NCBI RefSeq assembly: GCF_000741215.1
Contig: NZ_JGYX01000001.1
Span: forward strand, 434,001 to 498,000
Source of the DNA: Bifidobacterium pullorum subsp. gallinarum
GTDB lineage: Bacteria; Actinomycetota; Actinomycetes; Actinomycetales; Bifidobacteriaceae
Direction: 5' to 3'
DNA: 64,000 nucleotides
Made by a program: the position numbers and the translations under genes. The notes beneath the pieces were generated by a model. It was not told where the DNA came from. It was given only the letters and a program-made list of their open reading frames with translations, and searched no databases. Below, in pieces: positions 46,001-60,398 of this stretch. Every line of letters begins with the position of its first letter. The first letter of the stretch is position 1.

Positions 46001-46811
46001 CCTGCGGCGTCTGAAATCCGACGTGCTCAAGGATCTGCCCGACAAGATCGAGAACGTCATCACCGTGCAGCTGGAAGGGGAGCAGCGCCGGCTGTATGCG
46101 GCGTTGGAGCAGCGGCTGCGCGCCTCGATCAACAAGACCCGCGATGTGGACTTTCGCAACGACAGGATCCAGGTGCTCGCCCAGCTGACCCGGCTGCGGC
46201 AGGTATGCTGCGATCCGCGACTGGTCTACGAGAACGCGGGACAGCTTGACGCGCCGTCCGACGGCAGGCGCCGTACGGCGTCGCCCTCGGCCAAGCTGGA
46301 TGCGATCCAGGAGCTGGTGGAGAGCTGTCGCGATGCGGGGCGCAAGGTGCTGATCTTCTCCCAGTTCACCAGCTATCTGGACCTGATCGCCGAACGGCTG
46401 CGGTCGGTCGGCATGACCTATGACACGATCACCGGCGCCACGCCGAAGAAACGCCGGCTGGAACTCGTCGACTCGTTCAACGCCGACGACACCCCGGTGT
46501 TCCTGATCTCCCTGAAGGCCGGGAACACGGGGCTGAACCTGACCGGCGCCTGCGTGGTCATCCACGCCGACCCGTGGTGGAACGCGGCCGCGCAGAACCA
46601 GGCCACCGACCGCGCCCACCGCATCGGACAGACGCAGGATGTGAACGTGTACCAGATCGTGGCCAAGGACACGATTGAGGAGCGCATCCTGAACCTGCAG
46701 CAGTCCAAAACCGATCTGGCCAACCGGTTCGTGGACGAGGCCTCAAGCTCCGCCGGCGGTTCCGTGGCCGCGTTGACCCGCGAGGACCTGCTCGCGCTGC
46801 TGGGTGGCTAG
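42987..46811 (+). CDS. SWIM zinc-finger SNF2-family helicase
   Basis: Protein of 1274 residues from the ATG at 42987, which lies 14 bases inside mazG. A SWIM zinc finger (CTCPAYGRFGAICKH, from about residue 106) is followed by a basic linker, a long middle region, and a SNF2/HepA ATPase core: DEMGLGKT near 768, LDEAQYVKN near 921, ALTGTPIENRLAELWSI, and the second half FSQFTSYLD, SLKAGNTGLNLT and DRAHRIGQT. An insertion rich in Asp and Ala separates motifs Ia and II. Such proteins remodel DNA- or RNA-protein complexes; the bacterial role is not settled. The overlap suggests co-translation with mazG. Confidence 0.88.
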   Translation: MTWHNAVYGSRNGSDALGRPFDDGPVYGRVPDELIPEERLRRLGGKSFYRAHEVIDSARIHDFGYTYTDDGITLTALVDSADGYADDYSVTAHVDQSIGDLTASHCTCPAYGRFGAICKHVIALIMAYDEDPDAFEALDEDGGDPSPAARPRPRRSPRTSRRLQAFMREREQSRQSDVQSRQLTLLKEIDAMSSSGGSTGAQQGGAVSRHLPIGSVVLRPELRRFGTSWAVRLRLTVPSRSVAYVVKDVAAFIDTVRHQEFHSYGRKLAFVHTRDTLSERSRTILDVLERAVRIRESVTGGAPFYRRGAEADTVLLTGDEIGELLAAFVDADAFLDYERPYRMRTEPVRVVDGDPDLGLALVWSDDAEGYVVRHRLDVLDIVEGSSASFVAVAPSLSESLSRRAEASGAASGGDEVRIHRCSQAFMRARQAIDVLCGTARGEDMVVAPGDTDLFMRTVAPLFTAVTTDDATDGRPESGAESETGESGAGVRGIPIRLPEEMLRLRREPCVIEIYLDREPMGVTCDVQARYGDRRYHAFEGTAEDAPRRDRDAERLAVEAVLHYFPRPDGPLAFLEESDDDAIWRLITEGLPVMRGLGEVFTTPAFDGLLDAPRPTIRLGLSVRSGLVEISPIADEIDPEDVPGLLASYRRRRRFHRLRNGAFLDMSVVDAGQAEETLSDLDLTLHDLELGPVQVPATSAYYLDAQVDDEAKDEGFRAYVDGLRVVDPQSYAVPASLAEVLRPYQVEGFRWLNAVCDKGFGGILADEMGLGKTVQLLSLLVARRDEARAVGPNLIVCPASLVYNWEAECRRFAPGLRVAVVAGSKARRRALLDRICRAQVTRGAAERDNVDDDVTLVSQTTTAALADASDDGWQGAATPLPEDDGTATDGGPLPDLLITSYDLLRRDVEDYQGIEFFGMTLDEAQYVKNHATKASKAVRSVLARHRFALTGTPIENRLAELWSIFDFLMPGMLGSYRHFRERFEQPVLSGDEHAQAKLQAFVGPFILRRLKSDVLKDLPDKIENVITVQLEGEQRRLYAALEQRLRASINKTRDVDFRNDRIQVLAQLTRLRQVCCDPRLVYENAGQLDAPSDGRRRTASPSAKLDAIQELVESCRDAGRKVLIFSQFTSYLDLIAERLRSVGMTYDTITGATPKKRRLELVDSFNADDTPVFLISLKAGNTGLNLTGACVVIHADPWWNAAAQNQATDRAHRIGQTQDVNVYQIVAKDTIEERILNLQQSKTDLANRFVDEASSSAGGSVAALTREDLLALLGG

Positions 46812-46884
46812 CGGCGACGGCGGAGCATAGGGCGCTGGCCGGAATCCGGGAGCGGTGCCGTTGTCTGGGGATGCCGCTTCGCTT

Positions 46885-46979
46885 GGAAATCGAATGGTCG
46901 GGTGGGACTACGCGTCAGTTCCTGCGCCTGGCGATTCATGCTGGTCGCCCCGCCTGTGGAATCGAATGGGCGGGTGAGG
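46885..46979. repeat. Two imperfect direct repeats upstream of the GH172 gene
   Basis: GGAAATCGAATGGTCGGGTG at 46885 recurs as GGAATCGAATGGGCGGGTG at 46958, 73 bases apart, in the 270-base gap between the SNF2 gene and the GH172 gene. Function unknown. Apart from these and the promoter-operator element at 47011-47034 I see nothing in this gap. Confidence 0.5.
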
Positions 46980-47010
46980 CGGGACGGACGTGGCGTCGGA
47001 CACATGCCTG

Positions 47011-47034
47011 TATGATGGTGTCAAACCGGTTCGA
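47011..47034 (+). promoter_or_regulatory. Candidate -10 box and LacI-type operator of the GH172 gene
   Basis: TATGAT (47011-47016) is a good -10 box. TCAAACCGGTTCGA at 47021-47034 is a 14-bp near-palindrome with central CCGG (12 of 14 symmetric) located at the expected transcription start, a typical repressor site. It differs from the operator of the transporter operon, so a second regulator may act here. The -35 is poor. Confidence 0.45.
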
Positions 47035-47081
47035 TGCGAGTGTCGGAACGTTTGGGCAGGGTACAAGGAGGTCTTTGCGCC

Positions 47082-48224
47082 ATGGATACGCCAATGGGAA
47101 TGCCGCCGTTTGCTATGGGCATACCGTCGGGAGCGTTGGATATGTTGACGATGCCTTCAAGCGGGCGGAGTCGTTGCATCAACGCGGAGAACCCCACCGG
47201 GGGAAAGGGTCGTGCCGCCATGGCCGCCAGCGCGTTGGGGCCCTCGCGCAAGGGCAGCCCGTGCATCCAGACCATCGCCGCCGGGCAATCCGTAACCCTG
47301 ATGGATGTGGAGGGTCCGGGCGTGATCCGGCATATCTGGATGACCGTGACCGACCGCACCAGCCCCACCGGCCCGGATGTGCTGCGCAATCTGATTCTGG
47401 AGTGCTATTGGGATGGCGAGGATACCCCGTCGGTGGCCTGTCCGATCGGCGACTTCTTCTGCTGCGGGCATGCACAGGCCTGCCGGGTCAATTCGATTCC
47501 GGTGATGGTCAATCCCAACCGGGGGTTCAACTGCTACTGGGCCATGCCGTTCCGTCATGCGCGCATCGTGCTGCGCAACGACCATAACGAGGACGTGCCG
47601 GCGTTCTTCTACCAGATCGACTACACGGCGTATGACGAGCTGCCGCAGGATATGATGCGCTTCCACGCGCAGTGGCGGCGCGAACGGCTCACTGAGCCCG
47701 GACGTGATTATGTGGTACTCGATGGTGTGCGTGGGCGTGGCGCGTACGTGGGTACGTATCTGGCGCTGACCGCGCTGGAGAGCCGCTGGTGGGGCGAAGG
47801 CGAGATCAAGATGTATATCGATGGTGACGACGAATACCCCACTTGGTGCAGCACCGGCACCGAGGACTACTTCGGTGGGGCGTGGAGTTTCGCCGCGTTC
47901 GATGAGGCGGGGCATATGCGCGAGCAGACGTACACCGGGCCGTATATGGGGTTCCCGTTCTATTCGCAGCGTCTGGTGGGGCGAGAAAGCGACTATTGGG
48001 ATGTGGCGACGCCGGTGATGCGCGGCCTGTACCGCTGGCATATCCCCGACCCGATCTATTTCGAGCATGACCTGAGGGTCGAGCTCCAGCAGATCGGCGT
48101 CGACGAGTCCGGGCTGTTCGAACGCAGCGACGACGTGGCGAGCGTGGCCTACTGGTATCAGGGCGAGCCGCACGTGCCGTTCCCGGACACCATCCGCGAC
48201 CGGGCTTGGCGTCGCCCGCGGTAA
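47082..48224 (+). CDS. GH172 (DUF2961) glycosidase, probable alpha-D-fructofuranosidase type
   Basis: Cytoplasmic protein of 380 residues; the ATG at 47082 follows AAGGAGG. It matches the DUF2961 family, now GH172, by features such as GPGVIRHIWMT, IGDFFCCGH, YWAMPFR, the acidic WCSTGTEDYFGGAW and the C-terminal YRWHIPDPIYFEHDLRVELQ. The founding member, from Bifidobacterium dentium, acts on alpha-linked fructofuranosides and interconverts difructose dianhydride I and inulobiose; other members cleave D-arabinofuranosides. There is no signal peptide. The neighbouring transporter and two GH32 enzymes favour a fructose-containing substrate, but the exact linkage is inferred. Confidence 0.82.
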   Translation: MDTPMGMPPFAMGIPSGALDMLTMPSSGRSRCINAENPTGGKGRAAMAASALGPSRKGSPCIQTIAAGQSVTLMDVEGPGVIRHIWMTVTDRTSPTGPDVLRNLILECYWDGEDTPSVACPIGDFFCCGHAQACRVNSIPVMVNPNRGFNCYWAMPFRHARIVLRNDHNEDVPAFFYQIDYTAYDELPQDMMRFHAQWRRERLTEPGRDYVVLDGVRGRGAYVGTYLALTALESRWWGEGEIKMYIDGDDEYPTWCSTGTEDYFGGAWSFAAFDEAGHMREQTYTGPYMGFPFYSQRLVGRESDYWDVATPVMRGLYRWHIPDPIYFEHDLRVELQQIGVDESGLFERSDDVASVAYWYQGEPHVPFPDTIRDRAWRRPR

Positions 48225-48278
48225 GCGGCGGCCGCGGTTCCTTATTTGCAGGAGCGGATGACCATGGCTGCTCTGGTA

Positions 48279-48384
48279 TGGTACGGAACCTTTTTGGTGG
48301 GGTTTTTGATGTTCCGTACCACAAAAGTGTGGTACGGAATCTGATAAAGCATTTTGCAATGGTTTCGTACCGTACCTCCGTACC
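48279..48384. repeat. Cluster of alternating GGTACG/CGTACC repeats with strong hairpin
   Basis: TGGTACGGAA occurs at 48279, inverted at 48312-48321 and again at 48330. Bases 48312-48323 and 48328-48339 form a perfect 12-bp stem with an AAAG loop; 48279-48289 can pair instead with 48311-48321, so two hairpins exclude each other. Three more CGTACC copies follow at 48366, 48371 and 48379. This lies in the 550-base gap between the GH172 gene and the binding-protein gene; no gene is apparent there. It could be a terminator, a regulator-binding array or an attenuator. Confidence 0.6.
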
Positions 48385-48592
48385 CGTGGCCACGGCGGCG
48401 TATGCTTCGTGGAACACGGTAGGCGATTCCTGTCCTGTGTCTTGCGCCAGTGGCTGATTGAGGGCGCCAATTCCGCTTTGAGCCGGGTGATTCTTTTTAT
48501 GTCGGCGCTCAATCTCAGGTCCGTGGAATGCGGTAATCCGGCACCGTCCGGGTGGGGCATCGCCCGTTCGGTAGCGTTCTAAGAAGCTTGGA

Positions 48593-48606
48593 AACAATCG
48601 TTTGCC
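48593..48606. promoter_or_regulatory. Upstream LacI-type operator copy (O1)
   Basis: AACAATCGTTTGCC is, read on the other strand, a 12-of-14 match to the operator GGCAAACGATTGCC at 48640. It lies about 33 bases upstream of the promoter-overlapping copies, a distance that could allow cooperative binding or looping. Confidence 0.55.
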
Positions 48607-48625
48607 GTGAGTTCGACACGCCAAA

Positions 48626-48663
48626 GGCAAACGTTTGACGGCAAACGATTGCCGTTCTATACT
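48626..48663 (+). promoter_or_regulatory. Repressor-controlled promoter of the oligosaccharide transporter operon
   Basis: TTGACG (48635-48640) and TATACT (48658-48663) are separated by exactly 17 bases. Two 14-bp operator-like sequences lie back to back: GGCAAACGTTTGAC (48626-48639, covering the -35) and GGCAAACGATTGCC (48640-48653, filling the spacer). Binding by a LacI-family protein would block RNA polymerase. The second sequence recurs unchanged upstream of the GH32 gene at 56112. The leader to the ATG is about 105 bases. Confidence 0.78.
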
Positions 48664-48775
48664 CGCAATCAGCCGGCAGGCAATGGAGCTCTGAGCCACC
48701 TAAGGCACAACCTGCAGTGGGGGCTTCTTCGTCGGCAAGAAACAGACAACAGTCGCATGTTGTAAGGAGAGAATT

Positions 48776-50389
48776 ATGAGACACAGCAGTCTTCGTGGAG
48801 TAAAGCTTGCCGTGGCCGCGGTCGCAGCGGCGGCCATGATGATGCCTCTGGCAGCGTGTGGGGGAGATGATCATCCGGCCACTGCCGACGATGGCAAGCC
48901 GATCGTGTACATCACCGTCCGCCGTAACGTGACCGATGTCCACGTCAAGGACATGCCGTTCACCCAGGAGCTTGAAGCGGCCTGCGATTGCCATATCGAG
49001 TGGGAGGAGATCACCGACAACGCCTGGGGTCAGCAGAAGTCCGCCAAGATGGTGGCCGGCGACTTCCCGGATGTCGGCCTGTCGCTGTTCGATCTGAACG
49101 ACGTTTCCCAGTACCCGGACAGCTTCTTGGATTTCTCCGAGTACATGGACCAGCTGCCGAACGTCAAGAAGTTCTTTGAGGATCGTCCGACCGCCGAGAA
49201 GATGGTCAATGACGACGGCCACTACTACTTGCTGCCGTCCGACCGCGGCAAGGGCTACCGCGTTTCCGCCACGCATATGTTCATCAACCAGACTTGGCTG
49301 GATAATTTGGGCCTTGAGATGCCGACCACGTGGGACGAGCTTGAGCAGGTGCTCATCGCGTTCAAGAACGAGGATCCGAACGGCAACGGTGAAGCGGACG
49401 AGATCCCGATGAATATCCGTGATCTGGGCTTCGGCCTGTGGAGCCCGCTCGTGCTATTGAACTCCACCGGCATCGTCACCAACTTCATGGGCAACTCCGC
49501 CTCCACTCAGGGCTATTACGTCGAAGATGGCGAGGTCAAGAGCTACTACGCGGCCGATGAGATGAAGGATGTCATTGCGTTCTACAGCAAGCTGATGAGC
49601 GAAGGGCTGATCCCGAAGGACACCTTCACCCGTGACGATTCGCAGTACGCCTCGCAGACCCAGAACGACGGCAAGACCGCACTGACCGGCGTCTCCATCG
49701 GCTGGTCGAGCGCCAACGAATACGGTGATCTGGTTGACCAGTACGTCACGCTGCCGCCGCTCAAGCAGAGCGCCGACATGCCCGACGAGGACGTCAAGTG
49801 GGACTACTCGATGGACGCCACCGAGTTCGCCTACGTGCTCAGCGTCAATCCGGACGCGGTCAACATGGACGCGGTGATGAAGGTCATCAATGCGATGTAC
49901 GGCGAAAAGCTGTCCGTCGAAGGGTACTTCGGCTCCATCCCGGACTACGTCTCCGACGACGGCAACGGCCAGTACACCATCGACACGGAGAAGGCGTACG
50001 TCAACGGCCGTAAGGACACCGCCGTCATCGCCCTGCAGGACCGCTTCGCCGGTTACATCCCGGACAGCGTGACGATGATCAACGACACGAACGCCGATGA
50101 GGTCACCGCCAGCGACGAGGCCTGCCGCGACGCCTTGGCCAACGTGGACGCCGAGAAGGAAGTCATCCCGATCTGGATTCACCCGACCCAGGAGGACAAC
50201 GAGACGTTGGCCAATAATCGTACCGCTATCGATAACTTCGCGATGAACCAGCTGTCCACGTTCGTCCAGAACGGCGGCGTTGAGGAAGGCTGGGACAACT
50301 ACCTCCAGCAGCTCACCGCTGAGAGCCTTGGTCTGCAGGAGAACATCGACATCTGGCAGAAGTACTACGACGAAGCCGTAGGACAGTAA
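48776..50389 (+). CDS. ABC transporter sugar-binding lipoprotein
   Basis: Extracellular solute-binding protein of 537 residues. The signal peptide ends in a lipobox LAAC (Cys28), so the mature protein is lipid-anchored. The ATG has AAGGAG before it. The length, well over the 420 residues common for oligosaccharide binders, and the pairing with LplB/YtcP-type permeases place it in the LipO-like group often linked to complex glycans. It is the first gene of the operon under the dual-operator promoter. The substrate is inferred from neighbours to be a fructo-oligosaccharide or fructose dianhydride. Confidence 0.9.
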   Translation: MRHSSLRGVKLAVAAVAAAAMMMPLAACGGDDHPATADDGKPIVYITVRRNVTDVHVKDMPFTQELEAACDCHIEWEEITDNAWGQQKSAKMVAGDFPDVGLSLFDLNDVSQYPDSFLDFSEYMDQLPNVKKFFEDRPTAEKMVNDDGHYYLLPSDRGKGYRVSATHMFINQTWLDNLGLEMPTTWDELEQVLIAFKNEDPNGNGEADEIPMNIRDLGFGLWSPLVLLNSTGIVTNFMGNSASTQGYYVEDGEVKSYYAADEMKDVIAFYSKLMSEGLIPKDTFTRDDSQYASQTQNDGKTALTGVSIGWSSANEYGDLVDQYVTLPPLKQSADMPDEDVKWDYSMDATEFAYVLSVNPDAVNMDAVMKVINAMYGEKLSVEGYFGSIPDYVSDDGNGQYTIDTEKAYVNGRKDTAVIALQDRFAGYIPDSVTMINDTNADEVTASDEACRDALANVDAEKEVIPIWIHPTQEDNETLANNRTAIDNFAMNQLSTFVQNGGVEEGWDNYLQQLTAESLGLQENIDIWQKYYDEAVGQ

Positions 50390-50400
50390 ATCGACCTTAT

Positions 50401-50475
50401 GATCCGCCGGGCGCCGGCGCGCGGCGGATCCCCTCGTCGGGCGGTCACTCGCCTGCAGGCAGCCGCCCGACGTTT
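50401..50475 (+). other. Two tandem hairpins after the binding-protein gene
   Basis: Stem 1 pairs 50401-50409 with 50422-50430. Stem 2 pairs 50435-50444 with 50463-50472 (10 bp, with an inner GCCTGCAGGC palindrome in the loop) and is followed by TTT. In transporter operons such structures often stop part of transcription or protect the upstream message, giving more binding protein than permease. Confidence 0.6.
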
Positions 50476-50507
50476 CACACATACGTCATAGAGAAACAAG
50501 GTACGTT

Positions 50508-51476
50508 ATGGCTACGCATATGCAATCGGCCTCGGTCGCGGTTCCGGGCGGGTCGGTATCGTCGAACCGTCCCAAGCCGGGGTTCATGTCGCGGCTCGCC
50601 TACCACCTTCAGCGCTACTGGCAGCTGTGGATTCTGGTGGCCCCCGGCCTGATTTTCATGTTCCTGTTCGCCTATGTCCCGATGTGGGGCATCCAGCTCG
50701 CTTTCCGCGAGTTCGAGCCGTCCAAGGGGCTGACCGGCGGCGATTGGGTGGGGTTCAAGTACTTCATCCAGTTCTTCCAGTCACCGCTGTTCGGTCAGAT
50801 CATGTGGAACACGGTTCGCATCAGTCTGTGGACGCTGGTGATGGGCTTCATCTTCCCGATCATCCTGGCCTTGCTGATCAACCAGATCGGCTCCAAGAAG
50901 GTCAAGGGTTTCGTGCAGACGGTTACCTACATGCCGCACTTCATCTCGGTGGTGGTCATCGTCTCGATGCTGAACATCTTCCTGTCCCCGGGGTCGGGCA
51001 TCATCGGCCGATTCTTCGGCGACACAAGCCTGATGGGCAACTCGGGCGCCATTACCGCCGTCTACTGGATCTCCGAGGTCTGGCAGCACTGCGGCTGGAA
51101 CTGCATCATCTACCTGGCCGCCCTGTCCGGCGTGGACACCTCGCTGTATGAGGCCGCCAAGATGGACGGCGCCAGCCGACTGCAACTCATCCGATACGTG
51201 GATCTGCCGGCCATCATGCCGACCTGCACGATCCTGCTGATCATGCAGATGGGTTCGGTCCTGAACGTCGGATTCGACAAGATCTACCTGATGCAGAACA
51301 CGCTGAACCAGACCGCCACCGAGGTCATCTCGACCTACACCTACAAGATCGGTATTCTGGGCGGCCAGTTCGAATACTCCACGGCCATCGGCCTGTTCAA
51401 CACCGTGATCAACTTCCTCTTCCTGATGATCGCCAACGGCATCTCGAAGAAGGTCAACGACGCGAGCATCTTCTAA
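50508..51476 (+). CDS. ABC transporter permease, LplB type
   Basis: Inner-membrane permease of 322 residues with six predicted membrane segments; the first is near residues 45-65 (WILVAPGLIFMFLFAYVPMW). The EAA loop that contacts the ATPase reads YEAAKMDGASRLQLIRYVDLP. It resembles the LplB/UgpA class that works with long binding proteins. AAGG precedes the ATG. No ATPase gene is present in the cluster, so the complex probably uses a shared ATPase encoded elsewhere. Confidence 0.92.
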   Translation: MATHMQSASVAVPGGSVSSNRPKPGFMSRLAYHLQRYWQLWILVAPGLIFMFLFAYVPMWGIQLAFREFEPSKGLTGGDWVGFKYFIQFFQSPLFGQIMWNTVRISLWTLVMGFIFPIILALLINQIGSKKVKGFVQTVTYMPHFISVVVIVSMLNIFLSPGSGIIGRFFGDTSLMGNSGAITAVYWISEVWQHCGWNCIIYLAALSGVDTSLYEAAKMDGASRLQLIRYVDLPAIMPTCTILLIMQMGSVLNVGFDKIYLMQNTLNQTATEVISTYTYKIGILGGQFEYSTAIGLFNTVINFLFLMIANGISKKVNDASIF

Positions 51477-51488
51477 GGGGTGACCATC

Positions 51489-52433
51489 ATGAGTAACGCA
51501 ACCGTCGCCGTCGCCGCCAAGGTGAATAAGGACGACATTCCGTTCAATCCGAAGGTGCATTACAAGAAGAAGCCCAGCGACTGGGTGATCGACATCATCA
51601 TCTGGCTGTTGCTCGCCTTCGTGGTGATCGCCGTGCTGTACCCGCTGTGGTTCGTGATCATCTCCTCGTTCTCGAGTCCGAATGCCGTGGCCTCGGGCGA
51701 TGTGACGTTCCTGCCCAAGGACATCACGCTTGCCGGCTACGAGGCGGTGTTCAAGAACGACCAGATCTGGAACGGCTATCTGAACACGATCATCTACACC
51801 GTGCTGGGCACGATCGTGAACCTGGTGGTCACGATCCCCTGTGCGTTCGCGCTGTCCCGCGCCGAGTTCAAGGCGCGTCGCGTGATCATGTTCCTGTTCA
51901 CGGTCACGATGTTCTTCTCCGGCGGCCTGGTCCCGACCTACCTGCTCTACCAGCAGTTGGACATCCTGAACACCCCGCTTGTGTTCATCCTGCCCGGTGC
52001 GATCAGCGCCTACAACGTGATCGTGGCCCGCACGTTCTTCGAGACCTCGATTCCTGAGGAACTGCACGACGCCGCGCAGATCGATGGCATGAGCTACTTC
52101 GGATACTTCTTCCGCATCGTGATCCCGCTATCGAGCGCCATTATCGCCGTAATCGGCCTGTACTGCTTCGTCGCTCATTGGAACGACTACATGACGGGCC
52201 TTATCTACGTCACCGATACCAACAAGTGGCCTTTGCAGAACGTGCTTCAGCAGATCCTGATCGTCAACGCGAGCAGCTCGCAGTCGGCCGCCTCCGCGTC
52301 CGATCAGCAGCAGATCGCCGATCAGCTCAAGTTCGCGATTATCATCATCTCGACTCTGCCTCTGCTGGTGCTCTACCCGTTCCTGCAGAAGTACTTCAAC
52401 AAGGGCGTCATGCTCGGCGCCGTCAAGGGCTGA
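51489..52433 (+). CDS. ABC transporter permease, YtcP type
   Basis: Second permease of the same transporter, 314 residues from the ATG at 51489, which has AAGGGGTG before it; a GTG nine bases earlier is less likely. Six membrane segments, the first at about residues 31-55 (IDIIIWLLLAFVVIAVLY). The EAA loop reads LHDAAQIDGMSYFGYFFRIVIPLS. It starts 12 bases after the stop of the first permease gene. A long-range hairpin follows. Confidence 0.92.
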   Translation: MSNATVAVAAKVNKDDIPFNPKVHYKKKPSDWVIDIIIWLLLAFVVIAVLYPLWFVIISSFSSPNAVASGDVTFLPKDITLAGYEAVFKNDQIWNGYLNTIIYTVLGTIVNLVVTIPCAFALSRAEFKARRVIMFLFTVTMFFSGGLVPTYLLYQQLDILNTPLVFILPGAISAYNVIVARTFFETSIPEELHDAAQIDGMSYFGYFFRIVIPLSSAIIAVIGLYCFVAHWNDYMTGLIYVTDTNKWPLQNVLQQILIVNASSSQSAASASDQQQIADQLKFAIIIISTLPLLVLYPFLQKYFNKGVMLGAVKG

Positions 52434-52476
52434 GCACGACGCGGCCCGGCGGGAGTGCCGTATTCCGCTGGACCGT

Positions 52477-52538
52477 GCGAAACCCCGCGCCGCACGTCGT
52501 TCGTTGCCATGTGTCGACGCCGTGGCACGGGGTTTCGC
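52477..52538 (+). other. Hairpin between permease and YesL genes
   Basis: An 11-bp stem (52477-52487 with 52528-52538) encloses a 40-base loop, followed by the T-rich TTCATTCC. It lies in the 165-base gap after the permease gene. It may reduce read-through into the downstream genes. I see no separate promoter with confidence. Confidence 0.45.
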
Positions 52539-52598
52539 TTCATTCCTCATCATAGGCATTTCGTCATCGTTGACGTTGCATTGCTGAAAGGTACACCA

Positions 52599-53264
52599 AT
52601 GTTGGCTCGATTCGCTGTAGGTTACGAACAGGTCTGTCGCGCGATTCTCACGGCTTTCGTCATCAACGTGGCCTTCATCGTCCATACGGTGATGGGCCTG
52701 GTGGTGGCGGGACTGTTCCCTTCCATAGCCGCCGCATACGCCACGTGGCGTACCTGGATCATCGGCGAGGACCATTGGTGGACCTGCAAGGAGACCTGGA
52801 CGGTGTTCCACCGCGCGTGGAAGGCAGAGTTCCGGCAGTCCAACCTGGCGGGCTGGCCCCAGCTGCTGTTGTGGCTGCTGTTGATCTACGACTATTCGGT
52901 GGTCAACTGGCATGACGCCGGCGTTATGGGATATCTGAGTTCCGGTGTGCTGCTGGTGGTGCTGGTGGTGTACGGCGCGTTCTCGATGCTGTTCTGGGCG
53001 ATCCGCGCGAACTTCGACGAGAATATCCGCTGGTGCGTCAAGATGACCCTGCAGATGTTGCTGTGCCGTCCGCTGTGCACGCTGTGCCTGCTGGTCGGGT
53101 TCCTGATGACCGTGATGGTCTGGCTGACCTGGCCGGGTGTGCTGCTGGCGTTCGGCCTGTCGTTGCCGGTGCTGGTGGCCGTCGGCTGCGTGTACTTCTT
53201 CGGCCGCATCCCCGGGCTGAATGTGCGTGACACCGAGGCATGGAAGGCCCGCCATCCGGCCTGA
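52599..53264 (+). CDS. YesL/DUF624 family membrane protein
   Basis: Protein of 221 residues with about five hydrophobic segments, starting at the ATG preceded by AAAGG. The family occurs almost only beside LplB/YtcP-type ABC transporters and glycosidases in Gram-positive bacteria, as here. The typical family pattern is seen in FPSIAAAYATWR, the WWTCKETWTVFHRAWKAEFRQSN stretch (aromatic-rich) and the later membrane segments. Its function is unknown; an assembly or regulatory role for the transporter has been suggested by its context. Confidence 0.85.
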   Translation: MLARFAVGYEQVCRAILTAFVINVAFIVHTVMGLVVAGLFPSIAAAYATWRTWIIGEDHWWTCKETWTVFHRAWKAEFRQSNLAGWPQLLLWLLLIYDYSVVNWHDAGVMGYLSSGVLLVVLVVYGAFSMLFWAIRANFDENIRWCVKMTLQMLLCRPLCTLCLLVGFLMTVMVWLTWPGVLLAFGLSLPVLVAVGCVYFFGRIPGLNVRDTEAWKARHPA

Positions 53265-53294
53265 ACCATGCCCTAATCGGAGGAGAGTCCAACG

Positions 53295-54734
53295 ATGTGC
53301 CTGTATTACACCCCGGAACATGCCAAGGTGGGCGATGTCATTCCGTTCTTCGACCGGCGCTCGGGCCGGTTCGAGAATTTCTATCTGAAGAACTGGAACC
53401 CGGACGCACCCCGGGAGCAGGTGGTCCACGGCTGGCATCGGATGTCCGGTGCATGGCCGGACCAGATTGAGGAGACGCCGGTGCACATCCTCGGCGGCAC
53501 GGGTTCCGTGGTCGAGATGGATGGCACGTATCACCTGTTCTACTGCACCTTCGATGATAATCCGCAGCGTCAGTGGGTACGCCACGCAATCAGCGAGGAT
53601 CTGACCCACTGGCATGAGGTCGGTGAGGCGTTCGGCCCCGATTCGTCGATCTATGAACCGACCGATTGGCGTGATCCGTTCGTGTTCTGGAACGAGGACG
53701 AGCGCTGCTGGTGGATGCTGGTCGCCGCCCGTCGGCGTGCGTGCAGCGGGCGCAACGGTTGCGTGGGGCTGTGCGTGTCCGACGATCTGCTGCATTGGCG
53801 CGCCGAAGGGCCGTTGTACGCCCCGGATATCCATCCGGCCGCCTATGAGTGCCCCGATATGTTCCGCATGGGGGACTGGTGGTATCTGGTGTTCTCGAAT
53901 TATACGGACGGGTTCGCCACGTACTATCGAATGGCGCGATCACCGCTGGGACCATGGGTGCGTCCCGCAATCGATACCTTCGACTCCCGTGCGTTCTACG
54001 CGGCGAAGACCGGGAGCGATGGGCATGACCGCTACCTGTTCGGCTGGATCCCTACCCGTGGCGAAAACACTTGGGGGTTCGACCCCGCGCCGGAATATGG
54101 CGCGGACTACCGCACGTGGAACTGGGGCGGGTCGATGGTGGTCCATCGGTTGGTGCAACACGCCGATGGCACGTTGGGCACCGCACCTTGTGCGGATTTG
54201 GCGGCGCGAATGGACGCCGCGCCGTCTCGGCCCGTCCGGCTCACTCCGGTGCAGGGAACCTGGCGGACCGAGGGCGATGGGATTACCGGTCATGCGGAAG
54301 GATTCGCCGCGGTTGCAGGCTGTCCGATGCCGGGGCAGGGTGTTCTTTCGACCACCATCCGTTTCACCGGGGATCCGGTGCGGTTCGGGCTGATGATGCA
54401 CATCGATGCATCGTTGACGGACGGCTACTACCTGCAATTCGATCCCCGCCATCAGCGTCTTGAATGGCGTTCCGGACTGCGCATGCACGAACGGGGCGGT
54501 CAGCTCTTCCCGTATGCGGTGGAGATGGAACGACCGTGCGTGCTGGAAGGCGGTCGTGACTACCTGGTTGAGGTGGTCGTGGACGGCGATCAGGCGCACC
54601 TGTACCTGGATCGTGATTACGCCTTCGGCATGAGGCTGTACGATCGTCGCCCCGGCATGGCGGGGTGGTACGTCGAGGGCGGAACGCTCGACGTGCTACG
54701 AATGGGCGTCACCGCGTTCGGGATTGATGCATGA
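53295..54734 (+). CDS. Atypical GH32-family beta-fructosidase
   Basis: Cytoplasmic protein of 479 residues; GGAGGAG precedes the ATG. It has a five-bladed propeller of the GH32 type with the transition-state Asp127 in DWRDP and acid/base Glu185 in YECPD. The usual N-terminal WMNDPNG is replaced by VGDVIPFF, so Asp14 is the likely nucleophile, only 14 residues from the start. This places it in a divergent GH32 group (related to levan- or inulin-disaccharide enzymes) distinct from the enzyme at 56112. A C-terminal beta-sandwich is present (about 330-479). Likely substrate: the fructose disaccharide released by, or fed to, the GH172 enzyme; inferred. Confidence 0.82.
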   Translation: MCLYYTPEHAKVGDVIPFFDRRSGRFENFYLKNWNPDAPREQVVHGWHRMSGAWPDQIEETPVHILGGTGSVVEMDGTYHLFYCTFDDNPQRQWVRHAISEDLTHWHEVGEAFGPDSSIYEPTDWRDPFVFWNEDERCWWMLVAARRRACSGRNGCVGLCVSDDLLHWRAEGPLYAPDIHPAAYECPDMFRMGDWWYLVFSNYTDGFATYYRMARSPLGPWVRPAIDTFDSRAFYAAKTGSDGHDRYLFGWIPTRGENTWGFDPAPEYGADYRTWNWGGSMVVHRLVQHADGTLGTAPCADLAARMDAAPSRPVRLTPVQGTWRTEGDGITGHAEGFAAVAGCPMPGQGVLSTTIRFTGDPVRFGLMMHIDASLTDGYYLQFDPRHQRLEWRSGLRMHERGGQLFPYAVEMERPCVLEGGRDYLVEVVVDGDQAHLYLDRDYAFGMRLYDRRPGMAGWYVEGGTLDVLRMGVTAFGIDA

Positions 54735-54773
54735 GCGGGCATTCCGAGTCATAATACAAGGAGGTGAACTGAT

Positions 54774-55934
54774 ATGACCGGCACTCTGTCGGTGCCGCAG
54801 ATACGGGAGCAGCGAGGAATCCGTATGGTGACGATGAAGGAAGTGGCCGAGGCCGCAGGCGTGTCCATCGCCACGGTCTCCCGAGTGCTCAACGGCAAGG
54901 ACCGTGGACGCATCAAACCGGAAATCGCCCGGGAGATCAAGCGAATCGCCAAGGACCTCGGCTACAGGCCCAATCTGGTGGCCCGCAACCTGAAGACCCG
55001 CAGCAGCCGCATCCTCGGGTTCATCAGCGACGAGATCGCCACCACGCCGTTCGCCGGGCGCATCATGCTTGGCGCGCAGGATGCGGCGCGGGAATTGGGG
55101 TATATCCTGCTGACCGTCAACACCGGCAACGATCCGGACCTGGAACGCCGACAGATCGGCATCGTGCGGCAGTACGGCGCCGACGGCTTCCTCTACGCGA
55201 TGATGTACCACCGCAAGGTGGACATCCCCGAGCAACTCGACGACCTGCCCGTGGTATTGGTGGACGCCGAGGACAGGGCGGGGGCGCGGCCTTCGATCTG
55301 CCCGGACGAGTACGGCATCGGCTATACGGCCACCCGTCGTCTGTTGGATGCCGGGTGCCGGCGCATCGCCTACTTCGGTGCGGATGTGCCGATCGTCGCG
55401 CAGAGCGAACGACTGGCCGGATACCGGGCCGCATTGGATGAATCGCCGATCGGCTATGACGATCGCCTGGTGCTGGCCATCGATGAACACGACGTGTACG
55501 GTGACGTTCCCCGTCTGTTCGACGAGTGCCGTCCGGATGGCGTGTTCTGCTTCAACGATGTGCGCGCCCATCTGGCCTACCGTGAGGCCGATCGGCTCGG
55601 GCTGACGGTGGGGCGGGACCTGTCGGTGGTCGGCGTGGACAACCAGCCGTTCATCGCGGGCATCCTGAGCCCGGCGCTGACCTCGGTGGAACTGCCGCAC
55701 TACGAGATGGGATACTGGAGCGTGCGCAAGCTGATCTCGCTGATCGAGCGTACCGGGGACAGCGCCCTGCCGGAACCATCCATTGCGGAGGGCGGCCCCT
55801 CGCTGCTTGCCGATCTGAACCTCATGTTGCCCGCGGGCATCCATGCGCCGCTGCCGTCATTGACGCAGGACCGGGCGCAGGTCTCGTGCGTGCTGGTGGA
55901 GAAGGACTCCGTGGCCCCTGCGTCGCAGGGCTGA
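54774..55934 (+). CDS. LacI-family transcriptional repressor
   Basis: DNA-binding regulator of 386 residues; AAGGAGGTGA before the ATG is nearly perfect. The N-terminal helix-turn-helix (TMKEVAEAAGVSIATVSRVL) begins near residue 20, an internal GTG/ATG being a possible alternative start. The hinge helix NLVARNLKT and the periplasmic-binding-protein-like sugar-sensing domain follow, with a C-terminal tail of about 45 residues beyond the usual end. It sits between the two fructosidase genes, 39 bases after the first, so it is probably co-transcribed and self-regulated. Its likely site is GGCAAACGATTGCC, found before both transcription units. Confidence 0.92.
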   Translation: MTGTLSVPQIREQRGIRMVTMKEVAEAAGVSIATVSRVLNGKDRGRIKPEIAREIKRIAKDLGYRPNLVARNLKTRSSRILGFISDEIATTPFAGRIMLGAQDAARELGYILLTVNTGNDPDLERRQIGIVRQYGADGFLYAMMYHRKVDIPEQLDDLPVVLVDAEDRAGARPSICPDEYGIGYTATRRLLDAGCRRIAYFGADVPIVAQSERLAGYRAALDESPIGYDDRLVLAIDEHDVYGDVPRLFDECRPDGVFCFNDVRAHLAYREADRLGLTVGRDLSVVGVDNQPFIAGILSPALTSVELPHYEMGYWSVRKLISLIERTGDSALPEPSIAEGGPSLLADLNLMLPAGIHAPLPSLTQDRAQVSCVLVEKDSVAPASQG

Positions 55935-56017
55935 TTCCGAGTCCGTCCGGATGTCATTCCGGATGCGATCATCCGAATAACACGGACGTATTTCCTCGTG
56001 TCGCCTTGTTACGGGGA

Positions 56018-56048
56018 TATACTGGTATCAACAAGGCAAACGATTGCC
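56018..56048 (+). promoter_or_regulatory. Candidate -10 box and LacI operator before the second GH32 gene
   Basis: TATACT (56018-56023) is the same -10 hexamer as at the transporter promoter. GGCAAACGATTGCC at 56035-56048 is identical in all 14 bases to the site at 48640-48653 and begins 11 bases after the -10, near or just past the start of transcription. No good -35 is seen, so an activator or another box cannot be excluded. Confidence 0.68.
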
Positions 56049-56111
56049 ACCAGACGGGGCATGGCAGACCCGACGGCCGACGCCGTCGCCGACCAATGAA
56101 AGGACCCAATC

Positions 56112-57938
56112 ATGAACGCAACGTTGCAGTCGGCCGATTCCTGCGCTTTCGCGGCCGACGGCTACACCCAACTCGACGTCTTCGTCCAGCGCGCTGAACA
56201 GGACCACGCCCCCACCATCCGACTGCATGCGGATGGCGCATGCGTCGCCGAACGCGTCATGGACGCCGACCTGTACCGACAGCGCTTCCAGATCGACCTC
56301 GACCCGCAGGAACGGTACACGCTGGAGGTCGTCGACGCCACCGTACCCTACCTCTACCTGACCGGGGGAGAGAACCTGCTCGACCGCGGCATCCGCGTGC
56401 TCGACGCCGCCACCGGCGACCCCATGGCGGGCGACGGCGCCCCGGACTTCACCGATCCGACCCGCGCCGCCGTGCACTTCGAGCCGCCGGAGCACTGGAT
56501 GAACGACCCGAACGGCCTGTGCCGCTTCCAGGGCCGGTACCACCTGTACTACCAGTTCAACCCCTACGGCTGGGGCTGGGACAACATGCACTGGGGCCAT
56601 GCCGCCAGCCGCGACCTCGTGCACTGGACCTATCTGCCGATCATCCTGGAACCGCAGCGGGAACTGCATACCCGTCGGGGCATCTCCGGCGGCGCGTTCT
56701 CCGGCTCCGCCATCACCATCGACGCCGAAGGCCGCCCCTGCCCGGGCGATGACGCGGCCGCGATCCGCTTCTACCTGACCCGGCATTTCGAAGTGCCGGG
56801 CCAGCCGGACACGGTCGAGGAATGCCAGACCACCTGCGTCAGCACCGACAGCCTGACCGCGGGACCCGAAACCGTCGTCGTGCGGCGCGAGGGCGCGGAC
56901 TTCGGCCGTGACTTCCGCGACTCCAAGATCGAGACCGGTTTCGGCGGCGCGCTGATGATCCTGGCCACCAACCTGCCCTCCGACCAGGTGCCGGCATCGG
57001 GCGAGACCGGCGTCAGCGATGCCAACGAAGGCGGATGGTTCACGCTCTCCCCGCATGGCGAGCCCGATGTCGACCAACCCGATCCGAACCGGATCCCGGC
57101 GATCGTGACCTTCCGCAACGACACCCCCGACCTGGCCGACGACGCCTGGACCTATGTCGGCCCGATGGTGGCCGATCGCGGCTATGCCGAAGGCCGCACC
57201 TACGAGTGTCCGGACGCGTTCCCTCTGGACGGCGCGGACGTGGCCATCGGCGCGATCATGCACATCCGCACCAAGGACGGCTGCTTCCAGCCGATCCGCT
57301 GGTACACGGGGCGGCTGGACGAGCAGGGGCGGCTGGACGTCGGCCATTCCGGTTGGTGCGACTTCGGCGACTGCTTCTACGCGGTGCAGTCCTTCCGCGA
57401 CGACGACGGCCGCCGCATCGCCATCGGATGGCTCGCCGACCACAGCGGGGTGCGTCGCGAGGCCCCCGGCCGGGCCAACGGCGCGATGTCGCTGCCGCGC
57501 GAGCTGCATGTGCGTGACGGCCGACTGTTCAGCCGACCGGTCGATGAGGTCTACGACCTGCTGATCGGCGGCGAACTGCCGATGAGCGGTGAGGACGGCG
57601 ACTGGCAGGTGCCGGGCAACGCCTATTACGCGGATCTCCGTCCGACCGGCGACTGCACGGCGGTGCTCGCCGATACCGGCGAGGTGCGGTGGACCCTGGA
57701 ATGCCATGATGGCGAGGTCAGGTGCTTCAGCCAAGGCGCAGCCAGCGACGATCTGGCCTGCGTGACGCATGTGGATGAGGTCAAGCGCATCGAGGTGTTC
57801 TACGACCACGGCATCATCGAGGTGTTCGTGAACGACGGCGAGGCCGCCGGTGCGATGCTGGCCTATGACGAGCGCAAGAACGGCGGCTTCTCAGTGTCCG
57901 GGGACACCTCCTGCGAGGTGTGCTCGCTGCGCCGCTGA
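56112..57938 (+). CDS. GH32 beta-fructofuranosidase
   Basis: Cytoplasmic fructosidase of 608 residues; AAAGGA precedes the ATG. Residues 1-120 form an additional N-terminal beta domain. The propeller follows with nucleophile Asp132 in WMNDPNG, transition-state Asp270 in FRDSK (RDPK in most relatives) and acid/base Glu365 in YECPD. A C-terminal beta-sandwich ends the protein. It should cleave terminal beta-linked fructose from sucrose, kestoses or inulin-type chains. It is transcribed apart from the transporter operon but shares its operator. Confidence 0.92.
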   Translation: MNATLQSADSCAFAADGYTQLDVFVQRAEQDHAPTIRLHADGACVAERVMDADLYRQRFQIDLDPQERYTLEVVDATVPYLYLTGGENLLDRGIRVLDAATGDPMAGDGAPDFTDPTRAAVHFEPPEHWMNDPNGLCRFQGRYHLYYQFNPYGWGWDNMHWGHAASRDLVHWTYLPIILEPQRELHTRRGISGGAFSGSAITIDAEGRPCPGDDAAAIRFYLTRHFEVPGQPDTVEECQTTCVSTDSLTAGPETVVVRREGADFGRDFRDSKIETGFGGALMILATNLPSDQVPASGETGVSDANEGGWFTLSPHGEPDVDQPDPNRIPAIVTFRNDTPDLADDAWTYVGPMVADRGYAEGRTYECPDAFPLDGADVAIGAIMHIRTKDGCFQPIRWYTGRLDEQGRLDVGHSGWCDFGDCFYAVQSFRDDDGRRIAIGWLADHSGVRREAPGRANGAMSLPRELHVRDGRLFSRPVDEVYDLLIGGELPMSGEDGDWQVPGNAYYADLRPTGDCTAVLADTGEVRWTLECHDGEVRCFSQGAASDDLACVTHVDEVKRIEVFYDHGIIEVFVNDGEAAGAMLAYDERKNGGFSVSGDTSCEVCSLRR

Positions 57939-58001
57939 CCGAGCGGTCACGGCCGGCGCATCCGGCTGATCCCTCTGACCCTTCTGCGGCGGATTCACGG
58001 T

Positions 58002-58059
58002 GGCACTGCATCATATGGTCCGGTTGGGCTGTTCCGACCGATCCCTTTGATGCAGTGCC
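58002..58059 (+). terminator. Long-arm stem-loop after the second GH32 gene
   Basis: A perfect 12-bp stem (58002-58013 with 58048-58059) encloses 34 bases that themselves contain complementary GGTC/GACC. It lies 63 bases after the GH32 stop, followed by the partly T-rich TTCGTGTTG. Probable end of the fructan locus transcript. Confidence 0.5.
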
Positions 58060-58147
58060 TTCGTGTTGCTGCGTCATTTGTGCGACGACCGCAACCTGTG
58101 TGTGCTGTAATGGTGGTATCGGATCTCAGCGGAGAGATGGAGTGCAT

Positions 58148-59206
58148 ATGAGATACTGCATGTATTGTGGAGCGCAAGTGACCGAAGGCGCGAAGTTCTG
58201 CATGTCCTGCGGCAAGTCGGTGCAGGACACGTCCCCTGCGGTCGCTGAGCCACCCGTGGAGGCTACGGCGCCGATCCCGGCAACGCCCATGCCGGCAGCC
58301 TCGACTCCGGCAACGCCCATGCCGGCGGCGTCTGCCCCGGCGGAACCTGCGCCGCCGGCGGCTGCCCCGACGATCCCTGCGCCGGTGGCGCCAGCCCCGG
58401 CGGACCCTGCCCCCGCCGCAACACCGTCGTGGCAGCAGCAGCCTGCGTCATGGCAGCAATCACCGACATGGCAGACGCAGCGGATCCCCCAAGCCGAACA
58501 GTACAACGGCCAGTCATACCAGTATGCGCCGGCGGACGGTGCCTACGCTCCCGCCGGTACGATGGCCGCGCCGCCGAAGAAGCGGTCCAAGGGTGTTGTG
58601 GTAGGCATTGTCATCGCCATCATTGCCGTGATTGCCGCCGTGGTGTTCGGGCTCTGGTGGTTCCTGTGGCGCGGTGACGACCTGAATCCGGCCGGACGGT
58701 ACGCGCTGTCGAACGGCAGCGAGACCTACGAACTGGTCATCGACGACGACGGCGCGTTCAAGGTCTCCGATGTCCTCGGCAGCGGCAGCTATCTGACGGG
58801 TACCATCGGGGAAGGCACCGCTGACGGCGACAACGTGAGATATCCGCTGCGTGACATCAGCGCCTCGACCGTTAACGGCGAGATGACACTGTCCGAGCTG
58901 ATCGGGCAGGCCGATCCCAGCGGTGTCGGCTCGGCCATGGTCGATGCCATCGAGGTGGAGGTCACCGCTCCGAAGAACGCGGCGCACGGCAACATCGTCG
59001 GCACCTGGGGACTGTCTGGATCGCTGCTGACGTTCTCGGCGGAGATCCACATCACCGCGAACGCCGACGGCACGGTAGAGGCCGGTATGACGGCATTCGG
59101 CGAGGATCCGTCCAATGCCACGGGCACCTGGACCGACAACGGCAACGGCCAGTACACCGTGACCTTCGACGACGGTTCGCCGTTGACCGTCACGTTGCCG
59201 CAGTGA
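58148..59206 (+). CDS. Zinc-ribbon single-pass membrane protein
   Basis: Protein of 352 residues. A zinc ribbon (YCMYCGAQVTEGAKFCMSCG) is followed by a Pro/Ala-rich linker of about 90 residues that includes a 30-base direct duplication (from about 58278 and 58308), then a membrane segment (about residues 156-178) and a roughly 170-residue beta-rich domain outside. The general layout is that of the protein at 18365, but the outer domain is different and has no recognised enzyme motif. GGAG stands before the ATG at 58148. It could sense cell-envelope state; this is a guess from architecture. Confidence 0.75.
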   Translation: MRYCMYCGAQVTEGAKFCMSCGKSVQDTSPAVAEPPVEATAPIPATPMPAASTPATPMPAASAPAEPAPPAAAPTIPAPVAPAPADPAPAATPSWQQQPASWQQSPTWQTQRIPQAEQYNGQSYQYAPADGAYAPAGTMAAPPKKRSKGVVVGIVIAIIAVIAAVVFGLWWFLWRGDDLNPAGRYALSNGSETYELVIDDDGAFKVSDVLGSGSYLTGTIGEGTADGDNVRYPLRDISASTVNGEMTLSELIGQADPSGVGSAMVDAIEVEVTAPKNAAHGNIVGTWGLSGSLLTFSAEIHITANADGTVEAGMTAFGEDPSNATGTWTDNGNGQYTVTFDDGSPLTVTLPQ

Positions 59207-59354: not shown

Positions 59355-60398
59355 TCACTCGAACGGATAAGTCAGACCCCACTGGTTGCGGACCTGATCC
59401 ATCAGCTCCATGATGCGCACCGTGTCGGCATGCGGCATGGCCGCGCACTCGGTCAGGCCGTCCAGGATGGCGTTCGCCGCGTCGGCCACCTGATACTCGT
59501 AGCCGGTCAGTTGCGCCGGCACGTCATGATGCGCCACCAGGGCGTGATCGTTGTTATAGACGTCGATGCCCTCCACGTTGTTGATGTTCTGGCAGACGAT
59601 ATAGCCGTCCGTGCCCCAGATGTAGCCGCCGCGGTCCGAGGAGACGAGCATCGAGGCCTGCGCGGTGGCCATCGTGCCGTCCGCATAGTGCAGGGTGATG
59701 GCGTCGTGCGCGTCCACGCCGGTCTCGTACGGGGTCATCGAGGTCACGATGCGATCGATCGGACGCGGGCCCAGCACCATATCGATGAAGTTCAGCGGGT
59801 ATACGCCGACGTCGAGCAGCGCGCCGCCGGCCAGCATCGGATCGGTCATACGCGCCTTGCCGGACACCGGGTAGCACAGGTTCGCGTCCACCATCTTCAC
59901 CTCGCCGATCACGCCCGAGGCCACGATGTCGTCGATCATGCGGCGCGACGGCATGTAGCGCGTCCAGATGGCCTCGGTGCACAGCAGCCCCGACGCCTCG
60001 GCCACGGCCAGCAGTTCGCGCGCCTGCGCCGCGTTGGCGGTGAACGACTTCTCCACCAGGATGTTCTTGCCGGCCTGCAGACACATGATGCCCTGCTCGG
60101 CATGCAGGCTGTGCGGGGTGGCGATGTACACCAGATCCACCTGCGGGTCGGCCAGCAGCTCCTCATACGAACCGTAGGAGACCGGGAAGCCGTATTGTGC
60201 GGCGAAGGCGGCGGCGCGCTCGCCGTCGCGTGCGGCCACCGCGTACGGGGCCACCAGGTCGGCGTAGTGCGGGTCGGCCGCCATCTTGACCAGCGTGGTC
60301 GCCATCGCATGGGCGATGCGTCCTGCACCGAGGATCGCCACGTTCACCTTGAGATGTTCGGCCTGCGCCTGCGCACGGTTGCCGTTGAGTCTGCTCAT
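59355..60398 (-). CDS. Gfo/Idh/MocA-family oxidoreductase
   Basis: NAD(P)-dependent sugar or polyol dehydrogenase of 347 residues. The start is set at the ATG complementary to 60396-60398, preceded by AAGGAGG on the minus strand; a longer frame upstream has no support. The Rossmann motif AILGAGRIAHAMA opens the protein, VEKSFTANAAQA stands where the family has EKP, and the C-terminal domain with YPLNFID is present. It resembles dihydrodiol or D-xylose dehydrogenase-like members. The substrate cannot be told. A divergent vsr gene starts 127 bases away. Confidence 0.88.
   Translation of the reverse strand: MSRLNGNRAQAQAEHLKVNVAILGAGRIAHAMATTLVKMAADPHYADLVAPYAVAARDGERAAAFAAQYGFPVSYGSYEELLADPQVDLVYIATPHSLHAEQGIMCLQAGKNILVEKSFTANAAQARELLAVAEASGLLCTEAIWTRYMPSRRMIDDIVASGVIGEVKMVDANLCYPVSGKARMTDPMLAGGALLDVGVYPLNFIDMVLGPRPIDRIVTSMTPYETGVDAHDAITLHYADGTMATAQASMLVSSDRGGYIWGTDGYIVCQNINNVEGIDVYNNDHALVAHHDVPAQLTGYEYQVADAANAILDGLTECAAMPHADTVRIMELMDQVRNQWGLTYPFE

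Follow-up and report, generated by a model that had tools for sequence, protein, structure and literature searches.

A 64,000-nt stretch of the Bifidobacterium pullorum subsp. gallinarum genome (NZ_JGYX01000001.1, 434,001-498,000; hereafter the window, in whose positions the locus is described) harbored a glycoside hydrolase gene of family GH172 (DUF2961), followed on the same strand by genes for a solute-binding lipoprotein (SBP) and two permeases (PermA, PermB) of an ATP-binding cassette (ABC) importer, a YesL membrane protein, a short GH32 enzyme (GH32s), a LacI-family repressor and a long GH32 enzyme (GH32L). An earlier note on this DNA had read these genes as one unit for the uptake and intracellular breakdown of unusual fructose oligosaccharides. 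We consider it fairly probable that they form instead two adjacent transcription modules, both feeding fructose metabolism, and that the GH172 gene encodes an intracellular alpha-fructofuranosidase tied to the sucrose regulon. The evidence was drawn from the sequence: the families of the genes, the conservation of their catalytic residues, the presence of two different operators, the placement of GH172 in a tree and the joint occurrence of genes among genomes.

In the first module the GH172 gene would stand alone, under a promoter of its own and a ScrR-type operator. It would encode an intracellular retaining exo-alpha-D-fructofuranosidase that removes alpha-linked fructofuranose once sucrose-type repression is lifted, and its induction would coincide with that of amylosucrase and of sucrose phosphorylase with the associated permeases. 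Small alpha-fructosides, such as caramel-type difructose compounds or alpha-Fruf-glucose, are the candidate substrates. The second module would be a fructo-oligosaccharide operon of a type widespread among bifidobacteria (lipoprotein, a pair of permeases, YesL, LacI and GH32 beta-fructofuranosidase) with its own repressor and operator, importing beta-linked fructo-oligosaccharides to be broken down by two GH32 enzymes. The extra GH32, which resembles the endo-levanase BT1760, probably acts on beta-2,6-type fructosyl links in the short oligosaccharides brought into the cell. Because GH172 and BT1760-like GH32 genes recur near each other elsewhere, cooperation between the two modules in the breakdown of mixed alpha/beta fructosides is conceivable.

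Two operators at the locus

The ScrR-type operator TCAAACCGGTTCGA ended 47 bp upstream of the GH172 start codon. A search of the whole 2.16 Mb genome, allowing at most one mismatch, found it at only four places (control, 0). Besides the GH172 site, these were two sites between a LacI gene and the sucrose phosphorylase gene and one upstream of amylosucrase (PDB match 1e-142). The sucrose phosphorylase gene scored over its curated cut-off, and after it came two genes for MFS-type permeases that matched GPH weakly. The 64-kb window contained one match to TCAAACCGGTTCGA, against 0.01 expected in shuffles, and the operator was retained upstream of a 98% identical GH172 gene in a sister locus (L048). 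Across six other genomes, the palindrome TCGAACCGGTTCGA (at most one mismatch) gave 43 sites, with at least one per genome; read backward as a control, it was found twice each in G028 and G037 and not at all in the other four. Neighborhoods were counted for 18 of the 43 sites: 12 (8 distinct regions) adjoined a homolog of ScrR, ScrP, the permease or amylosucrase (at least 78% identity) or GH32s, and 2 had a weak GH13 match only.

A different operator was associated with the ABC/GH32 operon, a difference that the earlier note had not mentioned. At most one mismatch allowed, GGCAAACGATTGCC occurred at two places only in the genome, upstream of the SBP gene and of the GH32L gene (the backward control gave 1), and with up to two mismatches the window contained seven matches (four sites, both strands where fitting) against 0.68 expected. 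The gap between GH172 and SBP spanned 551 bp and included a separate sigma-70-like site overlapped by a GGCAAACGATTGCC-type operator, such promoter-like sites showing no excess over shuffles (2 vs 2.8). From these sequence features, GH172 is probably a single-gene unit under a sucrose-type operator, with the ABC/GH32 operon under another.

Placement of the GH172 enzyme

To our knowledge, two kinds of GH172 activity have been characterized, alpha-fructofuranosidase/difructose dianhydride I (DFA I) and alpha-D-arabinofuranosidase. The window GH172 was assigned to DUF2961 by Pfam (E 3e-92, 308.7 bits against a curated cut-off of 27) and kept Glu270, Glu291 and Asp292 (numbering of αFFase1, the Bifidobacterium dentium enzyme), as did 140 of 140 aligned rows. 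An AF2 model (pLDDT 72, pTM 0.77) matched the arabinofuranosidase ExoMA1 (8ic8, TM 0.76) in its double jelly-roll fold, several loops being of low confidence and the model too weak for subsite judgement.

A tree of 71 sequences was built from 43 of the 140 aligned rows and 28 from 30 new loci, of which the host genome itself and a partial frame were left out. Two clades in it, that of ExoMA1 with 24 rows and that of αFFase1 with 7, were each supported at 100/100 and both excluded the window GH172; a quicker 126-row tree agreed. The clade holding the window GH172, together with Bacillota and bifidobacterial relatives, was supported at 100/97 when taken at 27 rows and 97/92 at 30. By sequence, the enzyme is thus a member of a third, uncharacterized clade outside those of αFFase1 and ExoMA1. 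Since it fell outside the ExoMA1 clade, it did not lie in the D-arabinofuranosidase branch, the placement that the earlier note had named as contrary to its proposal.

Residues around the active site also differed from both characterized types. L070:14337-15695 was taken as αFFase1, since its residues fit the published numbering, its letters agreed by eye with stretches of 7v1v and its operon fits PMC8605356. Of the +1-subsite positions, Glu85 fell in a gap of the window GH172 and Lys147 was replaced by Asn, while published αFFase1 mutants showed residual activities on inulobiose of 0.5% (E85A), 3.0% (E85Q) and 4.8% (K147A) (PMC8605356). The choice between fructose and arabinose has been attributed to Gly299 in αFFase1 versus Asn253 in ExoMA1, the Asn blocking the fructose hydroxymethyl (PMC10509167); the window GH172 carried the small residue Ser at this position. 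Asn was found there in 23 of the 24 rows of the ExoMA1 clade (Cys in the other), and the combination Gly299-Tyr187-Lys147 held in 7 of 7 αFFase1-clade rows. The DFA I chemistry of B. dentium, as proposed earlier, was therefore not borne out, with Glu85 and Lys147 absent and the enzyme outside both characterized clades.

GH172 genes of any clade were present in 46 of 112 bifidobacterial genomes, mostly in clades without a characterized member. Such clades also made up the best 80 of 594 confirmed matches, whose loci were named (60 non-Bifidobacterium, 20 Bifidobacterium).

The two GH32 enzymes

Among solved structures GH32s came closest to BT1760, an endo-levanase of Bacteroides thetaiotaomicron (PMC5245892, PMC6560043), whether compared by sequence (2e-36), by profile (1.5e-87) or by fold (TM 0.81). 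Identity was about 25%, the catalytic D, RDP and E were shared, and the triad was invariant in 17 of 17 sequences. BT1760 is attached to the cell surface, unlike GH32s, for which an intracellular location is predicted. Pfam reported GH32N (1e-19) and no GH32C for GH32s; the C-terminal domain PF16346, present in a 52% identical homolog (L141), was not reported for it at E 0.001. A levan fructotransferase was rejected on profile matches (7e-8 to 4fff against 1.5e-87 to BT1760).

GH32L matched GH32N (1e-50) and weakly GH32C, and resembled the beta-fructofuranosidase 6nob over nearly its full length. The earlier note, in which it was called a normal GH32, had not mentioned that its transition-state motif, usually RDP, reads RDS (residues 267-274). 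Among 13 GH32L orthologs, RDS was found only in L048, the other 12, including that of a relative with the same operon (L189), having RDP. RDS coincided with a GH172 gene upstream in the host genome and L048, while L189, the same site without GH172, showed RDP.

Co-occurrence of GH172 and BT1760-like GH32 genes

Around the best 80 of the 594 GH172 relatives, a BT1760-like GH32 was encoded in 15 loci, an ordinary GH32 in 15, both in 10 and either in 20. All 20 loci with either GH32 were among the 60 non-Bifidobacterium loci, against 0 of 20 in Bifidobacterium. Sugar kinases of the ROK (6) and PfkB (3) families were also found near these 80 relatives. Proximity of GH32s and GH172 was frequent in Lachnospiraceae, Paenibacillus, Martelella and other bifidobacteria. 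Loci L111, L115 and L119 displayed the order permease(s), GH32, GH32s, GH172 (a single permease on the cut contig of L119), and in L138 a GH32s of 56% identity, the closest in that set, was separated from the GH172 frame downstream by about 106 bp. Loci L038-L041 combined a LacI 55-58% identical to the ScrR of the host genome with three sites of the TCGAACCGGTTCGA type, ABC genes, a GH172 of 61-63% identity and a GH32s that was divergent (28-32%). Alignment A3 left out L100 and L109.

Within the genus, GH32s (E<1e-40) was detected in 19 of 112 genomes, leaving out G002 with its weak match (E 3.8e-7). GH172 accompanied it in 16 of these 19, against 30 of the 93 others (Fisher p 4.7e-5, taking genomes as independent with no kinship correction). 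Both genes lay within 13 kb, a threshold set after the distances were known, in 9 of the 16 genomes and were far apart or on other contigs in 7; three genomes had GH32s without GH172. The association of GH172 with the atypical GH32 thus seems real at the family level from this recurrent pairing, as had been claimed for the locus, though in the window the two genes seem to be separately wired.

The same site and operon in related genomes

At the same site in L189, between the SNF2 helicase and MocA oxidoreductase genes that flank it, the order was helicase, SBP, PermA, PermB, YesL, GH32s, LacI, GH32L and MocA, without GH172. Identities to the window were 91% (SBP), 91% (PermA), 90% (PermB), 84% (YesL), 72% (GH32s), 64% (LacI) and 64% (GH32L), and the genome of L189 (G057) encoded a GH172 of 60% identity elsewhere, on a different contig (L036). 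The absence of GH172 from this site, together with the separate sucrose-type operator of GH172 in the window, spoke against the locus as one unit.

In L048, SBP (67%), permease and YesL (57%) genes (L048:4740-9201, 57-74% identical to those of the window) lay between GH172 (98%) and the LacI (85%) and GH32L (91%) genes, and no GH32s was found in the locus or its genome at E 0.001. This mosaic divergence suggests that the transporter cassette was replaced. The plain operon, SBP-PermA-PermB-YesL-LacI-GH32L, was complete in 8 of 15 further fetched loci (L263-L268, L271, L272), in all eight without GH32s and without an adjacent GH172; the other 7 had the operon in part or were cut.

Window-type GH172 genes (at least 71% identity) occurred at 31 further loci of the genus including L048, the other 30 in different settings. 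Of three GH32 references, a match within the flanks of these 31 loci was found, besides L048, only in L070, namely the GH32 of the αFFase1 operon. For the SBP of the ABC operon belonging to GH172 in congeners, the best match in the host genome was only 27% identical, so that a close homolog was lacking. Neighbors were called by comparing open frames with a small set of reference proteins, through BLAST or clustering, over flanks that reached 10 kb at most and in some cases stopped earlier at a contig end.

Comparison with known systems

The αFFase1 operon of B. dentium (BBDE_2039-2043, the founder of GH172; PMC8605356) and the window locus both encode LacI, GH32, DUF2961 and an ABC importer, with enzymes lacking signal sequences and with fructose compounds as known or predicted substrates. 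The combination of GH172, GH32 and an ABC importer has already been published for B. dentium. The window GH172 differs in its clade, its low identity and its unkept +1 subsite, and the locus in its GH32 enzymes, transporter and gene order and in the separate GH172 operator. Comparison of gene order, which the earlier note had proposed, hence revealed a difference, and a B. dentium-like genome had an ortholog of the window GH172 elsewhere. In that genome the αFFase1 operon spanned L070:11797-18878 and the ortholog (78%) L070:4941-6086, 8 kb from the αFFase1 gene and with fewer of the usual transporter genes upstream. A Bacteroides uniformis locus with four GH32 genes and a GH172 has also been mentioned (PMC9905522).

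ExoMA1, an alpha-D-arabinofuranosidase of Microbacterium arabinogalactanolyticum (8ic8; PMC10509167), is the closest solved relative, of similar length and the same fold. The window GH172 differs from it by its separate clade and the replacement of Asn253 by Ser, and no D-arabinan context was seen at the locus. By context, fructoside metabolism was favored over that of D-arabinan, in line with the earlier proposal.

The fructo-oligosaccharide (BfrR) operon of bifidobacteria (PMC4746261, Table 2) has the same SBP-permease-permease-YesL-LacI-GH32L order as the window, an order also displayed by the eight complete congener loci, by L189 (with GH32s) and by L048. The window adds GH32s between YesL and LacI and GH172 upstream, and the likeness is one of gene order. 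The bifidobacterial ScrR regulon (PMC4746261) corresponds to the operator shared with sucrose phosphorylase and amylosucrase in the host genome. No published mention of GH172 in the ScrR regulon was found, the supplementary regulon tables of PMC4746261 not being covered. Likewise, no description of this GH172 clade, of its pairing with a BT1760-like GH32 or of its sucrose-type operator was found in the literature searched, supplements and most subscription papers lying outside the search.

Weighing of the explanations

Several observations weigh against a sucrose-controlled alpha-fructofuranosidase. ScrR binding at the GH172 operator is a prediction from the motif alone, and 4 of the 18 TCGAACCGGTTCGA loci in the six other genomes had none of the tested genes nearby. 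At 23 of the 31 window-type GH172 loci, homologs of LacI, SBP, PermA and PermB adjoined GH172, and many of these 23 carried another operator, with TCGAAACGTTTCGA or TCGAAACGATTCGA sites; because these loci have their own LacI and ABC transporter, sucrose control of GH172 may be peculiar to two close species. The clade holding the window GH172 had only 92/83 support when taken at 35 rows. The nearest solved protein was ExoMA1 by sequence (1e-68), profile (2e-98) and fold. DgGH172c (8ah3), which cleaves pNP-alpha-D-Araf (PMC10115798), has Cys and not Asn at the position said to choose between the sugars, so this position alone is not decisive for activity, and αFFase1 itself cleaves both fructoside and arabinoside (PMC8605356).

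A single dedicated pathway appears unlikely; in it, a fructose oligosaccharide, cyclic or alpha-linked, would be taken up through the SBP, opened by GH172 and then degraded further by both GH32 enzymes. Such a pathway would account for the contiguity of the genes on one strand, the retention of GH172 beside the operon in L048, the ABC-GH32-GH32s-GH172 sets of L111, L115 and L119, the short spacing in L138 and the co-occurrence across the genus, including the nine genomes with both genes close together. It is opposed by the different operators and the gap with its promoter-like site, by the operon of L189, by the absence of GH32s from the sister genome G064 and from the eight equivalent operons, and by the seven genomes in which GH172 and GH32s are distant. 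A single operon as first choice was ruled against by the different operators and the separate promoter-like site. From the original one-pathway interpretation, the fructoside substrates, intracellular breakdown and GH32 association were thus supported, and the single unit and DFA I chemistry were not.

That GH172 is an arabinofuranosidase of the ExoMA1 kind, trimming D-arabinose from actinobacterial cell-wall fragments, seems improbable. The PDB match to 8ic8 by sequence and fold speaks for it, as does the activity known for GH172 enzymes of Dysgonomonas, Nocardia and a mycobacterial parasite (PMC10115798), but the clade placement and the Ser at the Asn253 position do not, nor does the predicted regulon of sucrose phosphorylase and amylosucrase or the neighbors of relatives, which include GH32 and ROK/PfkB kinases. 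Weakly against it, a Pfam scan of 107 neighbors, hand-picked from 245 and mostly on the same strand as GH172, yielded 88 families, and the 25 most frequent of these, to which this negative applies, included no D-arabinose isomerase family. It was ruled against as first choice by clade placement and retained as a rival. A DFA I synthase/hydrolase like αFFase1 is more doubtful still: the family and catalytic residues are shared, whereas identity was 33.5% against a published set of 120 homologs all above 47.45% (PMC8605356), the residues at positions 85, 147 and 299 were not kept and the enzyme lies outside the seven-row clade. This candidate was rejected on identity, +1-subsite residues and clade.

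Beyond the two-module reading, we tentatively raise a wider possibility, which we hold to be less likely than those modules themselves. Enzymes of the third GH172 clade could constitute, with an intracellular GH32 of the BT1760-like type and a further, ordinary GH32, an undescribed pathway for mixed alpha/beta-fructofuranosyl oligosaccharides derived from levan or caramel. This pathway would have spread between Bifidobacterium, Lachnospiraceae, Paenibacillaceae and Alphaproteobacteria while its transporters changed, and in some bifidobacteria it would have been placed under a sucrose-type repressor. The recurrent pairing and the sucrose-type operator indicate which substrates to try first and warn against transferring the labels "DFA I hydrolase" or "arabinofuranosidase" to these GH172 genes. 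If alpha-fructosides were confirmed as substrates, this could explain the use of caramel-type sugars by common gut bacteria.

Gene inventory and minor observations

The host genome (10 contigs, 99.8% complete) encoded one DUF2961 gene and three GH32 frames (five GH32N matches), two at the locus and one more. All eight genes described earlier were confirmed in place and strand, with families assigned by Pfam and PDB matches (Table 1).

Table 1. Genes and control elements of the locus (window positions)
Feature	Position	Strand	Remarks
-10-like TATGAT and ScrR-type operator TCAAACCGGTTCGA	47011-47016 and 47021-47034	+	-10 read by eye, absent from computed promoter-like sites
GH172 (DUF2961), 380 aa	47082-48224	+	third, uncharacterized clade; predicted intracellular retaining alpha-D-fructofuranosidase
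Control region of ABC/GH32 operon (promoter-like site and operators)	48593-48663	+	
Promoter-like site TTGACG-17-TATACT	48635-48663	+	overlapped by LacI-type operators (48593, 48626, 48640: GGCAAACGATTGCC)
ABC solute-binding lipoprotein (SBP), 537 aa, lipobox LAAC	48776-50389	+	
ABC permease A (BPD_transp_1)	50508-51476	+	Pfam
ABC permease B (BPD_transp_1)	51480-52433	+	Pfam
YesL/DUF624 membrane protein	52599-53264	+	ATG 52599 preferred as start over GTG 52455
Short GH32 (GH32s), 479 aa, endo-levanase BT1760-like	53295-54734	+	triad D14, D127 (RDP), E185
LacI-family repressor, presumed GGCAAACGATTGCC binder	54774-55934	+	Pfam family, operator context
Second exact copy of GGCAAACGATTGCC	56035-56048	+	upstream of long GH32
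Long GH32 (GH32L), 608 aa, 6nob-like	56112-57938	+	RDP motif reads RDS

An AGGAGG ribosome-binding site preceded the GH172 ATG. Catalytic residues were kept in all three glycosidases, and their N-termini had no strong hydrophobic stretch, the best 15-residue Kyte-Doolittle mean over the first 45 residues being 1.12, 0.11 and 0.85 against 2.18 for the lipoprotein. With no signal sequence seen, the glycosidases are predicted to be intracellular, as the earlier note had proposed. The SBP had no Pfam match at E 0.001 and matched the PDB binding proteins 6fth and 3omb, its lipobox being read by eye; no publication describing 6fth was found. Neither GH172 nor the SBP was matched by a model of NCBIfam, and Rfam found nothing at window positions 46000-59000.

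Downstream of the locus lay a GFO/IDH/MocA oxidoreductase gene (59355-60560, - strand), a family that represented 5 of the 107 other scanned neighbors of GH172 relatives. Between GH172 and SBP, positions 48270-48395 were rich in palindromes, with GTACGGAA and TTCCGTAC repeats. Possibly a repeat element, this stretch was partly and more weakly matched at two other places of the genome (76% and 74% identity across some 65 bp), and a longer part of the spacer, from about 48274, matched L048 twice.

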